Assembly (NCBI RefSeq): GCF_036621415.1
Contig: NZ_CP030941.1
Coordinates: 4,152,001-4,216,000, forward strand
Source: Nitratireductor thuwali
GTDB taxonomy: Bacteria; Pseudomonadota; Alphaproteobacteria; Rhizobiales; Rhizobiaceae
DNA: 64,000 nt
Direction of reading: 5' to 3'
Shown: piece by piece, positions 19,821-28,393 of the stretch
Layout: the number at the start of each line of letters is the position of its first letter
How positions within the stretch are numbered: position 1 is the first letter of the stretch
The notes under the pieces: generated by a model
Seen by the model: the letters and a program-made list of their open reading frames with translations, nothing else
Database searches by the model: none
What the model was told of the DNA's origin: nothing
Position numbers and translations under genes: made by a program

Positions 19821-20213
19821 TCAAGGCGTCCAGGCGTCGTAGTCGCCGGTGACCCGGGGCCTGTCTTCCTTGGTCAGGATGGAGCCGTCGGGACGATAGG
19901 CGGCCGGCGTGCCTGTCAGATTTGGCAGGTGCGGCTTCTGCCACTCGCGCGGCATGTAATTTTCCTCGACCGGGGCGGTGTCCACCTTTTGATGCAGCCA
20001 GCCGTGCCAGCCCGGTGGCACCATCGATGCTTCCGCAAGCCCGTTGTAAATCACCCAGCGCCGTGTACGGCCCTCCGAATCGGTCCCGCCCTGATAGTAG
20101 ATGTTGCCGAACTCGTCCTCGCCGACGCGCTCGCCCTTGCGCCATGTATGAAAGCGCGTGCCGAGCGTCTGGCCATTCCACCAGGTAAAGAACTGAAGCA
20201 GGAACTTCTTCAT
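19821..20213 (-). CDS. NADH:ubiquinone oxidoreductase accessory subunit, NDUFA12 family
   Basis: An accessory subunit of respiratory complex I conserved between alphaproteobacteria and mitochondria. The start ATG 20213 (130 residues) has GAGG five bases upstream and gives MKKFLLQFFTWWNGQTLGTR; an open frame runs 33 codons further up without support. Family sequences DEFGNIYYQG, RRWVIYNG and ASMVPPGWHGWLH are clear, as is the C-terminal proline-rich tail. The complex I nuo genes are not in the window. Confidence 0.93.
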   Translation of the reverse strand: MKKFLLQFFTWWNGQTLGTRFHTWRKGERVGEDEFGNIYYQGGTDSEGRTRRWVIYNGLAEASMVPPGWHGWLHQKVDTAPVEENYMPREWQKPHLPNLTGTPAAYRPDGSILTKEDRPRVTGDYDAWTP

Positions 20214-20785
20214 CGCTTCCTCAAGCCTCTGGGTCGTGGGGCGGCATTTGAGCTGCCTGCGGGCGCCAGCCCGCCATGTGTGCCTTATGGCGCCCATGGC
20301 CAGCGAAGGCAAGGCCTTCCATGGCCGCTGATCGGTGACGGGTTACACGGCGCGCTCGAAAATGAGCGCCGGCAAATGGTCGCCCTGTCCACCGCAATCG
20401 CCGGTGCGGCCCACCTGGCCGAAACCGCGCGAGACATGGAAGCCGATGCCTGCACATTGGCCTCCTCCACTTCCAGCCGCCTGACACAATAACCGTTCGC
20501 GGTCGCCATCAGGGATGGGCCTGGCGACGCCGTGATGCAGGTCATGGATGAGGATGAGCTCATCAAATCCTGCATGCGGGCCAAAGGATTCCGGCGATAG
20601 GAACCTCGGTCAATCAAGTCTGCATATTGTTGGTGATTGAAATATTATCGACATATATTATGGTTATACGAGTAGTTCATGAAGCATTGAAGTCGATTCA
20701 GTAATATATAATTTTGTTAAAATTCTTTTATAGATTGCATTCCTTGTTGAGAAATGTGGTCGCAATCTGGCTATGGAGAACGGTT
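20214..20785 (+). other. 572-bp gap with AT-rich promoter region of the cqsA-like gene
   Basis: The left 400 bp are GC-rich and hold only a short open stretch (about 20327-20492, +) rich in Ala that I cannot assign; it may be a degraded gene end. From about 20620 the composition changes sharply to AT-rich (for example AATATTATCGACATATATT). A possible sigma-70 promoter is TTGGTG with TATATT 18 bp downstream, about 130 bp before the cqsA start. No lux-box-like palindrome was seen. Confidence 0.45.
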
Positions 20786-21949
20786 ATGGAATACATTGCC
20801 AATTTTCCCCGAGAACATTTGCGTGAACGCGAAGATGCATTTCATATCAAGCGCTTCGAACAAATATGGGGTGGAGATCATCTGCTCCGGGGACGTGAAC
20901 CCAGGGATGGCGATATCCACCTCATGAGCAATGATTATCTGTGCATCCAGGACGAACCGGCGCTGAGAAAGGCACAGGCGCACGCATTGCTCAACGGCAA
21001 GACCGATCTCCTCATGTCCAGCATTTTCACGCTGGAAGGCAGTTCGATGCAGCAACTCGAGGCGGCGTTTGCTTCGTATATGCAGAGCGAAGAGGCGATC
21101 ATCTGCCAATCCGGGTTCGCTGCCAATGTCGGACTTCTCCAGTGCATCGCCAGTCCATCGATACCGGTTTATCTGGATTTGAATGCCCATGCCTCCTTGT
21201 GGGAAGGCGCCAAGGTGGCCGGTGCTCGGGGAATCGCTTTTCGCCACAACGATCCCGCGCATGCTGAACGGCAGATAAAACGAAATGGACCCGGCGTTCT
21301 CGTGGTCGATGCGGTCTACAGCACGGACGGCAGCCTGTGTCCGCTTGCTGAGATCACGGATCTTGCGGAGCGCACGGGATGTATTCTCGTGGTCGACGAA
21401 TCGCACTCCCTCGGCACGCATGGACCGGCCGGTGCGGGTCTGACCGTGGGGCTCGACCTCGCCTACCGGGTTCACTTTCGAACAGCTTCTCTGGCCAAGA
21501 CCTTTGCCGGCCGAGCGGGGCTCATCGCCTGTCCGGCGAGGTTCAAGGAGTATTTTCGCATGGAATCCAACCCGGCGATCTTCAGTTCCGGCCTGCTCGA
21601 ACATGAGTATGTCTGGTTTCTCGAGGCGCTGTCGTTGATCCGCGGTGCCGACGACCGCCGACGGCGATTACACACCATCTCGAAGAGTGTGCGGCGGAGT
21701 CTAGACGAGATGGGTTATGACGTCGGCGGCGGGACCGAGCAGATTGTCGCAATCGAGAGTGGAGACGAACGGGAGACGCGCCGGATGCGCGACGCTCTCC
21801 AGCAAGCGGGCGTATTCGGGGCAGTCTTTTGCCCGCCGGCAACGTCGCGCAACCATTGCCTGGTGCGATTATCCCTTCATTCGGGACTTAGCGAAGCGGA
21901 TCTGGACGCGCTGATAGAGCGCTGCTCCGCTGCCAGGTCGGCCATGTAA
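20786..21949 (+). CDS. cqsA: CqsA/LqsA-type alpha-hydroxyketone autoinducer synthase
   Basis: A PLP-dependent alpha-oxoamine synthase-like enzyme of 387 residues (V. cholerae CqsA has 389). CqsA/LqsA enzymes condense an acyl-CoA with SAM or an aminobutyrate-type substrate to make alpha-hydroxyketone or aminoketone signals. Hallmarks: LMSNDYL at 47-52, QSGFAANVGLLQ at 108-119, DESHSLGTHGPAGAGL from 204, the PLP lysine in TASLAKTF (Lys 238), NPAIFSSGLLEHE from 262, and FGAVFCPPATSRNHCLVRLS near the C-terminus. Start ATG 20786 has GGAG seven bases upstream; a TTG at 20714 is less likely. About half of the first 55 codons end in G or C, far below neighbours, and the promoter is AT-rich, suggesting transfer. 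No CqsS or LqsS-like sensor adjoins it. 2-amino-3-ketobutyrate ligase and biotin synthase-type AONS are less likely because the CqsA-specific SLAKTF and NPAIFSS motifs are present. Confidence 0.88.
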   Translation: MEYIANFPREHLREREDAFHIKRFEQIWGGDHLLRGREPRDGDIHLMSNDYLCIQDEPALRKAQAHALLNGKTDLLMSSIFTLEGSSMQQLEAAFASYMQSEEAIICQSGFAANVGLLQCIASPSIPVYLDLNAHASLWEGAKVAGARGIAFRHNDPAHAERQIKRNGPGVLVVDAVYSTDGSLCPLAEITDLAERTGCILVVDESHSLGTHGPAGAGLTVGLDLAYRVHFRTASLAKTFAGRAGLIACPARFKEYFRMESNPAIFSSGLLEHEYVWFLEALSLIRGADDRRRRLHTISKSVRRSLDEMGYDVGGGTEQIVAIESGDERETRRMRDALQQAGVFGAVFCPPATSRNHCLVRLSLHSGLSEADLDALIERCSAARSAM

Positions 21950-22172
21950 ACGCTTGCAGCAGAACCAGCTATTTAGATACGCGACGTTCCTGCAAAGCCG
22001 AAACCAGTGCCAACCAGCACGCCCCATGGACAAGCCCGTCCCAGGGACAACCCAGACGGCGGTCATGGCCATAGATGCCGTCATAGGTGTCATGCCAGGT
22101 TCGTGAAAGCAGCTCACGGAGGCGTCGATGTCGCCGCGGCCGGCCGTTCGAATGAAAACCGGCCGAACAGAT

Positions 22173-23675
22173 TCAGTCGTCGATCCCGAGCTTTTCCTTC
22201 ACGAGCGCGTTGACCGCTTGCGGATTGGCTTTGCCGCCGGTCGCCTTCATTACCTGTCCGACGAACCAGCCCGAGAGCGACGGCTTGGCCTTGACCTGCT
22301 CGACCTTGTCGGGATTGGCGGCGATAACCTCGTCCACCGCCTTTTCGATGGCGCCGGTGTCTGTTACCTGCTTCATTCCGCGTTCTTCGACCAGCACACG
22401 CGGATCTCCGCCCTCGTTGAAGACGATTTCGAACAGGTCCTTTGCGATTTTCCCCGAAATGGTCCCGTCCTTGATCAGGTCGATGACTGCGCCAAGCTGA
22501 TCCGGCGAAACAGGCGTGTTTTCAATATCTTTTCCGGCCTTGTTCAAGGCCCCCAAAAGGTCGTTGATGACCCAGTTCGCGGCAGCCTTGCCATCGCGCC
22601 CCTCGGCCACCTTCTCGAAATAATCGGCAATGGCCTTTTCCGAGACGAGCACGGACGCATCGTATTCGGACAGGCCCAGCTTCTCGATGAAGCGCGCCTT
22701 CTTCTCGTCCGGCAGTTCTGGAAGGTGCTCCGCAAGCGCGTCCACATAGGCCTGGTCGAACTCGAGCGGCACCAGGTCCGGATCGGGGAAGTAGCGATAG
22801 TCGTGCGCTTCCTCCTTGGAGCGCATCGAGCGCGTCTCGCCCTTGGCGGGGTCGAACAGCCGCGTCTCCTGATCGATCGAGCCGCCGTCCTCGAGGATCG
22901 CGATCTGGCGCCGCGCCTCCGATTCGATCGCCTGGCCGACGAAACGGATCGAATTGACGTTCTTGATCTCACAGCGCGTGCCGAAAGGCTCTCCAGGCCG
23001 GCGCACCGACACATTCACGTCGGCGCGCATGGAGCCTTCGTCCATGTTGCCGTCGCACGTGCCGAGATAGCGAAGGATCGTGCGCAGCTTGGTGAGAAAC
23101 GCCTTGGCTTCGTCGGAAGAGCGCATGTCGGGCTTGGACACGATCTCCATCAGCGCGACGCCCGAGCGGTTGAGGTCGACATAGGACATGGTCGGATGCT
23201 GGTCGTGCATCGATTTGCCGGCATCCTGTTCCAGATGCAGCCGCTCGATGCCGACCTTGATCTCCTCGAAGCTGCCGTCCTTGGCCGGCCCGACGGCGAC
23301 GATGACGACGCCCTCGCCGACGATCGGCTGCTTGTACTGCGAAATCTGATAGCCCTGGGGAAGATCCGGATAGAAGTAGTTCTTGCGGTCGAAAATGGAG
23401 CGGTGGTTGATCTGCGCCTTGAGGCCGAGACCGGTGCGGATCGCCTGCTTGACGCATTCCTCATTGATCACCGGCAACATGCCCGGCATGGCGGCATCCA
23501 CCAGCGAGACATTGGAGTTGGGCTCGGCGCCGAACGCGGTCGAAGCGCCCGAGAAAAGCTTGGCCTGCGAGGAGATCTGCGCGTGGATCTCCATGCCGAT
23601 AATCACTTCCCACTCGCCGGTCGCGCCGGAAATCAGCCGTTTTGGATCGGGCAAACGCGTGTCGATAATGGTCAT
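22173..23675 (-). CDS. gatB: Aspartyl/glutamyl-tRNA amidotransferase subunit B
   Basis: GatB is the kinase subunit of GatCAB, which converts Glu-tRNA(Gln) and Asp-tRNA(Asn) to the amidated forms. Start ATG 23675 gives 500 residues; a frame extends 39 codons upstream but the family begins near [15 protein letters not shown]. Motifs seen: [67 protein letters not shown], and the C-terminal tRNA-binding YqeY-like tail. gatA and gatC are not adjacent, as is common in Rhizobiales. Confidence 0.97.
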
Positions 23676-23946
23676 GATGTGCTCGGTCGATTTCGGATAA
23701 TACTGGCAACTCGCTAGACCAATCGGCCTTGTGAGGCAAGCCGAAGGGCCTTTATTCCGGGCACGCCTTGTTGTAATGGACGTTCCGTCCAACGGAGCTT
23801 TTATGTCTAGCTATCTGGAGACCTGCTGAAACGCCCTGAACCCGACGCGGGACAGGGCGTGAAAACCGGAGCATCCGTGCTGCCCATGGCAGCGCGGCGT
23901 TTCTTATTGGCGAACAGCGTTCGCCGCAGGTTTTCCAGGTATGACA

Positions 23947-27544: not shown

Positions 27545-28393
27545 ATGATGATCGAACTCGACATCGACTCGATTTGCCGGCGCATAGCTGTCCAGTCGCC
27601 CTATTTCGGCTTCAGGTCCCTTCGCCAGAACAAGCATGGAGCGATCGAAGGCGAGTTTACGCCCGAACAGCCTTTGGGGCATGAGCGCGGCCCTGTTGCA
27701 ACTGCGGAAGTCGGGCGCCATCTGGCGATCCTGGGATCCTGCGCGGCCGCCTGCTCGCATTCGGACCGCATCTATTATTTGGCGACCGAAGCGCACTACA
27801 CGCAGTTTCGGCAACCGAACGCAGTCAGGTTCGGACAACCCATGTGGGCCACGGCGGAAGTGCTCGAACACGACCGGCGCGGTTTGCTGGCACAGGCGGT
27901 ACTGTCCGACAATGCCCCTTTCGTCCATCTGCGGGTTCGCTATCTGGCTTTGGCGGAAGCTGTCTTCGAGCGGTTATTCCACAGTCATCGATTGGAGACG
28001 GACGAGCACGTGGGGCCATCACCCTATGCAAGCTTGCTCCCGCTGGCTTTTGATGAGCCGAATGATCGGTCGCTGACCGCGCGCGGCACTCTGCGCCCGG
28101 AATGTTGCGCCGGACATTTCCCGGACTACCCATCATGGCCGGTAGCGATCATAGGCTACAACGCCGTGCGCGTGATGGAGCGGCTTCTGCATCACATTGC
28201 CGGCAACGAGGCCGAATACACGATCATCTCAGCCAGTATCGCTTCATACAAGCTGGTCTCGGCAGCCTCCCCGCTCCTCTTCCGGGCCACCTGCACTTCC
28301 GCCTCCAAAGGGCTTTCGCATTATGCATTTTCATGTCTCGTATTGTGCGGCGAGGAGAAGGTCGCCCGCTTCACGACGGAAATGCGCCTCTAA
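27545..28393 (+). CDS. Orphan double-hotdog fold protein (dehydratase/thioesterase-like)
   Basis: A 282-residue protein with two hotdog-like halves. The first contains ERGPVATAEVGRHLAILGS, resembling the central helix; the second contains CCAGHFPDYPSWPVAIIGYN, reminiscent of the HFPxxPxxPG motif of FabA/FabZ dehydratases, with His at the catalytic position. It could act on an acyl-CoA or acyl-ACP, or resemble AfsA-like butenolide synthesis proteins; I cannot choose. Two ATGs (27545 and 27548) are possible; GGAG lies five bases before the second. It stands alone with AT-rich DNA on both sides. A link with the cqsA-like gene 6 kb away is only a guess. Confidence 0.6.
   Translation: MMIELDIDSICRRIAVQSPYFGFRSLRQNKHGAIEGEFTPEQPLGHERGPVATAEVGRHLAILGSCAAACSHSDRIYYLATEAHYTQFRQPNAVRFGQPMWATAEVLEHDRRGLLAQAVLSDNAPFVHLRVRYLALAEAVFERLFHSHRLETDEHVGPSPYASLLPLAFDEPNDRSLTARGTLRPECCAGHFPDYPSWPVAIIGYNAVRVMERLLHHIAGNEAEYTIISASIASYKLVSAASPLLFRATCTSASKGLSHYAFSCLVLCGEEKVARFTTEMRL

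Follow-up and report, generated by a model that had tools for sequence, protein, structure and literature searches.

A horizontally acquired CqsA-family synthase in a Nitratireductor-group bacterium that may send a cholera-autoinducer-type signal without sensing it

A gene lodged between two core genes of a bacterium of the Nitratireductor/Chelativorans group encodes, as judged by family models, structural relatives, and phylogeny, a CqsA/LqsA-family synthase, and the genome that carries it contains no recognizable CqsS/LqsS-type sensor or LqsR-type regulator; the organism may send a cholera-autoinducer-type signal without sensing it. The window, which is the whole 64-kb stretch of DNA analyzed here, belongs to a genome of 4.75 Mb in three contigs that is 99.93% complete. 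We posit, with a probability of roughly one half, that the gene encodes an acquired and working CqsA-type synthase whose product, an alpha-hydroxyketone-type signal, is released by a bacterium without the receptor of this enzyme family. The features on which this reading is based are listed in Table 1.

Table 1. Features of the window around the cqsA-like gene (positions are those of the window)
Feature	Position	Strand	Evidence
NDUFA12 gene, left-hand core neighbor	19821..20219	-	NCBIfam NF006040, 209.7 bits
3' remnant of the interrupted GNAT acetyltransferase gene	20346..20480	-	90% DNA identity, 136 aligned columns
Acquired insert, about 1,578 bases, replacing about 248 bases of Nitratireductor luteus (G005), the nearest relative	20481..22058	.	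blastn against the empty site (L096)
AT-rich leader, 32.0% GC (169 bases before the start)	20617..20785	.	
Promoter-like element TTGAAA-N16-TATGGT	20636..20669	+	common to the cqsA genes of L005 and L006 at another site
cqsA-like gene, PLP-dependent alpha-hydroxyketone autoinducer synthase, 387 aa	20786..21949	+	NF005526, 522.8 bits; CqsA 2wk8; tree
5' remnant of the same GNAT acetyltransferase gene	22059..22174	-	tblastn/blastn with the intact gene of N. luteus (L131:3349-3855)
gatB, right-hand core neighbor	22173..23792	-	NCBIfam NF004015, 889 bits

The likely start of the gene is the ATG at 20786, which has a GGAG upstream, and the reading frame ends at 21949 on the forward strand. The homologs in N. 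aquimarinus TN35-13 (L005) and in an uncultured Nitratireductor MAG (L006) start at about the same place; therefore, the start at 20620 proposed in a preliminary description of this DNA is not borne out, and that position falls in upstream DNA. The predicted protein exceeds the cut-off of the NCBIfam equivalog model for CqsA/LqsA alpha-hydroxyketone synthases (NF005526; 522.8 bits, cut-off 428) and falls short of the cut-offs for 8-amino-7-oxononanoate synthase (BioF, TIGR00858; 215.9 bits, cut-off 426.45), for 2-amino-3-ketobutyrate CoA ligase/glycine C-acetyltransferase (KBL, NF005394; 175.7 bits, cut-off 460), and for serine palmitoyltransferase (SPT, NF047599; 184.6 bits, cut-off 500). Among solved structures, CqsA of Vibrio cholerae (2wk8) ranks first with an E-value of 5.3e-95, and the next molecule follows at 2.1e-32. 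The motifs quoted in the preliminary description are present, and K238 of the window protein aligns with K236 of CqsA, the lysine reported to bind PLP (PMC3376566). The acyl pocket of CqsA is described as composed of H30, V32, F79, F257, I263, F264, C346, P348, and A349 (PMC3285556); seven of these nine residues are identical in the window protein, the two changes being V32 to L34 and F257 to M259.

BioF, KBL, and SPT belong to the same superfamily as CqsA, and their models match the window protein significantly, though far more weakly. There is nevertheless next to no chance that the protein is an ordinary member of one of these three families mistaken for CqsA: each of their equivalog cut-offs is missed by more than 200 bits, the CqsA group retrieved in a search of plasmids (7 records, at least 299 bits) is clearly separate from the next matches (45 records, at most 158 bits), and the window genome has a KBL (626 bits) and an ALAS (547 bits) of its own elsewhere. 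A misannotated BioF, KBL, or SPT is accordingly rejected on the NCBIfam cut-offs and the plasmid score gap and, for KBL, BioF, and ALAS, on phylogeny as well.

Phylogenetic analyses were performed on chosen subsets (33 at most) of 120 listed proteins; two of the eight other Hyphomicrobiales rows (L028 and L029) were left out of the careful tree and of an earlier version of it. In the careful tree, which has 48 rows and labeled KBL, BioF, and ALAS sequences as the outgroup, the branch that divides the CqsA family, with the window protein inside it, from KBL, BioF, and ALAS has a support of 100/99; the tree has no SPT row, and SPT is excluded by its NCBIfam cut-off instead. The assignment to the CqsA/LqsA type made in the preliminary description thus stands on the family model, the best solved relative, and the tree placement together. 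The window protein forms a clade with P0002 (84%), the N. aquimarinus protein, and the protein of the Nitratireductor MAG (100/100), which is joined next by P0005-P0008 (100/99), one of them named Rhizobium sp. LCM 4573, and which stands beside five sequences, three of them named Pseudomonas (97/93). The Rhizobium sp. LCM 4573 protein (P0008) is a CqsA with 62% identity that its database entry calls hypothetical. The tree unites its six remaining Hyphomicrobiales sequences in a clade of their own (94/94; the earlier version, with the window genome's own paralogs only, gives 97/93), and we therefore consider it probable that the gene reached this lineage independently of the other Hyphomicrobiales. 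The source is plausibly gamma- or betaproteobacterial, the direction of transfer being one that we infer.

Matches over the family cut-off occur in 1 of the 16 genomes in the genus of the window genome and, in sets that include the window genome and each sample a larger group, in 2 of 394 genomes of the family, 8 of 397 of the order, and 16 of 398 of the phylum; the genus of N. aquimarinus (G801) has a match in 2 of its 10 genomes. A search of named genomes with six exact peptides confirmed only two close relatives and one distant relative at 25% identity. No relative was found encoded on viral contigs, where 19 stretches fit the pattern and none was confirmed.

The genomic context argues for acquisition. 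In all 15 congeners, gatB and the NDUFA12 gene are adjacent with no cqsA between them, which agrees with the earlier placement of the gene in a core region. At this site N. luteus has an intact GNAT acetyltransferase gene of 169 codons (Pfam E 4.7e-18), of which the window retains the two ends only, and a GNAT match is present between gatB and NDUFA12 in 8 of the 15 congeners. Because every one of the 15 congeners has an empty site and a host gene is broken around the insert, we conclude from these comparisons that the cqsA gene is foreign and horizontally acquired, as the preliminary description had suggested from base composition. The composition is consistent with this conclusion: the insert is 55.7% GC, against 63.5% for the whole 64 kb, and the GC content at third codon positions is 65.6% for the cqsA gene and 47.3% for its first 55 codons, against ranges of 70.2-87.5% and 58.2-89.1%, respectively, in eleven nearby genes measured in the same way. 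The earlier estimate that about half of the first 55 codons end in G or C, and that the upstream DNA turns AT-rich, is therefore accurate, and, of 3,192 segments of 169 bases that were sampled, the three poorest in GC (32.0%) overlap the AT-rich leader. Between the GNAT remnant and this leader lies a stretch of 57% GC (20481-20616) that is absent from N. luteus. A recognizable mobile element at the insert is not supported; the listed repeats are at most 27 nt long and none frames both sides. Elsewhere in the window, a reading frame of 282 residues (27545-28393, forward strand) matches neither Pfam nor NCBIfam models at E<=0.001.

The receptor was sought with a model built from the gene neighborhoods of other synthases. 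The order and phylum sets contain 24 matches outside the window genome, of which 23 were fetched and one (G619) was left out, its gene running off a 9-kb contig. In an all-against-all comparison of the fetched loci, a histidine kinase adjoins the synthase, and the N-terminal hydrophobic region of this kinase has a signature, FPQPYENL followed by P..F, N, and W..S, that is conserved across 22 aligned rows. W104 and S107 of CqsS are described as ligand-recognition residues (PMC5007282), and we read the conserved W..S pair as their equivalent. The sensor-domain model was built from these 22 rows, and those 22 loci match it by construction; held-out groups were recovered at E-values of 9.4e-25 or better, and one locus that was never in the model (L063) was found at 1.6e-49. 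The sensor lies at most 1.2 kb from the synthase in 23 of 23 loci of other lineages and in none of the three of the window lineage.

With this model no CqsS-type sensor was found in the 64-kb window at E<=0.001, and no CqsS/LqsS-type sensor in the whole window genome at E<=1. Four of four control genomes of the same order gave matches at 2.6e-53 or better, the controls' own sensors being among the 22 rows of the model. Nothing was found at E<=1 in the 10 congeners tested of the 15. The genomes that carry L005 and L006 and the genome G801 likewise gave no match, in a search without a positive control of its own; the loci of G801 (L094) and of G1136 (L112), the MAG that contains L006 and is 90% complete, are identical to parts of L005 and L006, respectively. 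A model of the full kinase has 23 matches in the window genome at E<=1e-10, each to the catalytic part only. Since the 22-sequence sensor model, whose sensitivity was checked by leaving out groups, finds nothing in this genome at E<=1, we reject the explanation that the kinase is merely unlinked to the synthase. A search of the window genome for an LqsR/JqsR-type regulator gave 15 weak matches, the best at 6.6e-5 over 29 positions, compared with 2.4e-147, 3.7e-132, and 2.1e-99 for controls, the last of which (G105) is outside the model. As far as such models can recognize them, there is no CqsS/LqsS sensor and no LqsR regulator in this genome; the preliminary description had noted neither kind of protein near the gene and had called for a search of the rest of the genome for the kinases, and both observations now extend to the genome as a whole. 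Its term orphan is apt for the missing receptor, but the condition is not confined to a single locus, being present in at least three genomes and at two chromosomal sites.

The two other receptor-less genes, those of N. aquimarinus and the Nitratireductor MAG, encode proteins 77-78% identical to the window protein and, like the window gene, have no sensor in the locus or the genome. Unlike the window gene, they occupy another chromosomal site, downstream of dctM, and the DctM proteins of the two loci are 95% identical. Nei-Gojobori dN/dS values for the three pairs of receptor-less genes are 0.10, 0.09, and 0.07; these are approximate because dS, at 1.1-1.7, is near saturation, and only their direction is firm. 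From this direction the three genes look to be under purifying selection. The promoter-like element upstream of the window gene has a form shared among the three, TTGAAA-N16/17-TATnnT, and in each of two comparisons with the window 1 of 500 dinucleotide shuffles reached its score. Between 20200 and 22200 there are two promoter-like sites, against 1.1 expected by chance, the site at 20636-20669 being the one upstream of the gene on the same strand. Downstream of the three genes there is no similarity above that of shuffles.

CqsA joins S-adenosylmethionine and decanoyl-CoA to form Ea-CAI-1, which is converted into a diketone and then reduced to CAI-1 (PMC3376566). Because the relevant residues are conserved with CqsA, the window enzyme would be expected by analogy to condense S-adenosylmethionine with a medium-chain acyl-CoA on PLP, giving an enaminone of the Ea-CAI-1 type that would pass through a diketone and be reduced to an alpha-hydroxyketone. 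The producer would be deaf to this product via the known route, and the gene would be kept for its action on other cells, bacterial or algal; this last step is the least certain. The absence of CqsS/LqsS from the producer nonetheless leads us to favor an effect on others, which is the role proposed for orphan synthases in CPR and DPANN (PMC7567580). LAI-1 is reported to act on eukaryotic cells (PMC4669118), and N. aquimarinus is reported to have been first isolated from a diatom culture.

The window genome also encodes four LuxR-type proteins with an autoinducer-binding domain (Autoind_bind). Two of their genes flank a luxI homolog on contig 3 (213 kb; L130:2561-5486; LuxI Pfam E 9.8e-39), and from this arrangement we predict that the strain probably makes acyl-homoserine lactones (AHLs) as well, whereas for the other two, on contig 1, the surrounding 5-kb stretches contain nothing related to that LuxI. 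A LuxI with 87% identity occurs in the MAG G1136. The preliminary description had set the synthase against a rhizobial group better known for AHLs; this needs the correction that the window organism itself has a luxI homolog beside luxR-type genes. An isolate of N. indicus was positive with an AHL reporter (PMC10052519), and a Nitratireductor strain was among ten quorum-sensing isolates from algal phycospheres (PMC8750903); the portions of these two Nitratireductor-containing quorum-sensing studies available to us, the first of which assays AHLs, make no mention of CAI-1.

These proteins bear on the possibility that the synthase works and its producer senses the product by a receptor unrelated to CqsS/LqsS, for example a solo LuxR protein or a histidine kinase whose sensor domain is of a different type. 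We regard this as possible but not probable. The LuxR solos on contig 1, as distinct from the pair flanking luxI, are the first candidates; a review states that signals other than AHLs can act on solo LuxR proteins (PMC5007282), any of the 23 proteins matched by the kinase model at E<=1e-10 could be such a receptor, and a receptor of a different fold would escape the sensor model. However, no candidate receptor is linked to cqsA in the window or, by inspection, in L005 and L006, and the receptors of CAI-1 and LAI-1 that PMC3376566 describes are of the CqsS/LqsS type. The lack of a receptor, which leaves nothing to tie the enzyme to signaling, would also be compatible with an enzyme turned to a metabolic role and making an aminoketone that is no signal, and the nearest non-signal relatives (KBL, BioF, ALAS, and SPT) are metabolic. 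We consider this unlikely in view of the largely retained acyl-pocket and PLP residues of CqsA, the position of the window protein inside, not beside, the receptor-linked enzymes, and the fact that the two genomic sites have, by inspection, no partner gene in common. A recent passenger that arrived without its receptor and goes unused could account for the patchy occurrence of the gene (1 of 16 genomes in its own genus and 2 of 10 in that of G801) and for the foreign composition of gene and leader, but this is highly improbable for a gene with open frames in three genomes, a dN/dS of about 0.1 over 77-87% protein identity, and a shared promoter-like element.

The separation of synthase and sensor has parallels on plasmids. 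The conjugative-type plasmid pTM3 of Tistrella mobilis (L136; NC_017958.1 338505-379563) carries a CqsA-family gene that scores 478.1 bits, above the cut-off, and encodes a protein 47% identical to that of the window, although without the exact DESHSLG string; its place in the tree did not resolve. There is no CqsS-type sensor within 20 kb of it, and the plasmid has no match to one CqsS-type kinase at E<=1e-20. Therefore, lineages other than that of the window may also have a synthase without its receptor, the evidence from pTM3 concerning the plasmid only. Plasmids of Rhodanobacter denitrificans, Polaromonas sp. JS666, Dyella sp. BiH032, and Rhodanobacter thiooxydans (L137-L140) encode a CqsS-type sensor kinase and, after it, an LqsR-type regulator, with no synthase within 8 kb (or to the end of the record) and no CqsA match on the plasmid at E<=1e-30. 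These are possible listen-only systems, known from plasmid records alone. PRTRC-system plasmid genes adjoin three of the four pairs.

Previous work had described the enzyme family, a member of it in Rhodomicrobium vannielii, and the idea of orphan synthases. A search of open-license listings and the openings of abstracts for a rhizobial or alphaproteobacterial CqsA led no further, and as far as that literature shows, what is new is a lineage without the receptor, identified in genomes that are complete or nearly so. Every cqsA, lqsA, or jqsA gene was stated in 2013 to lie beside its sensor (PMC3566124); three genomes of one lineage, with two sites, contrast with that universal linkage. The lineage would offer a natural case of signaling in which the sender does not sense itself through the cognate receptor, and its group includes marine members that can be cultured. 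More tentatively, and with the balance of our judgment against it, we speculate that members of the Nitratireductor group are send-only emitters whose receptor-less cqsA, present at two sites, has been selected to steer vibrios, burkholderiads, and other neighbors equipped with CqsS/LqsS-type receptors, or else eukaryotic algae. If this is true, synthase-less receivers would be the counterpart, as the plasmid sensor-regulator pairs suggest, and alpha-hydroxyketone signaling would be a network whose senders and listeners can be separated, not only a set of closed self-sensing circuits.

Among known systems, CqsA of V. cholerae (PDB 2wk8/3hqt/3kki) has 44% identity to the window protein over 364 aligned residues, with the PLP lysine and seven of nine pocket residues in common; the window protein differs in the two changed pocket residues, and neither window nor genome has a CqsS-type sensor. 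The synthases of the LqsA/LqsS/LqsR system of Legionella and the JqsA/JqsS/JqsR system of Janthinobacterium HH01 belong to the same NCBIfam family (PMC3376566, PMC3566124), but unlike these systems the window genome is without a detected LqsS-type sensor or LqsR-type regulator. The jqsA deletion strain HH02 of Janthinobacterium, for which violacein can serve as the readout, is reported to regain function with either cqsA or lqsA (PMC3566124). Within Hyphomicrobiales, an alpha-hydroxyketone synthase has been on record for Rhodomicrobium vannielii since 2013 (PMC3566124), and families other than that of the window genome contain eight CqsA matches (seven above the cut-off, one at 402.9 bits) of the same enzyme family; unlike the window gene, all eight have a sensor beside them, and the six that are in the tree form the separate clade. 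For the orphan synthases of CPR and DPANN, the idea that a synthase is kept for its effect on others is already in print (PMC7567580). They differ from the present case in belonging to other phyla and in being homologs recognized by BLAST/HMM, 51 of which, according to the same source, are beside a protein that matches the CqsS profile.
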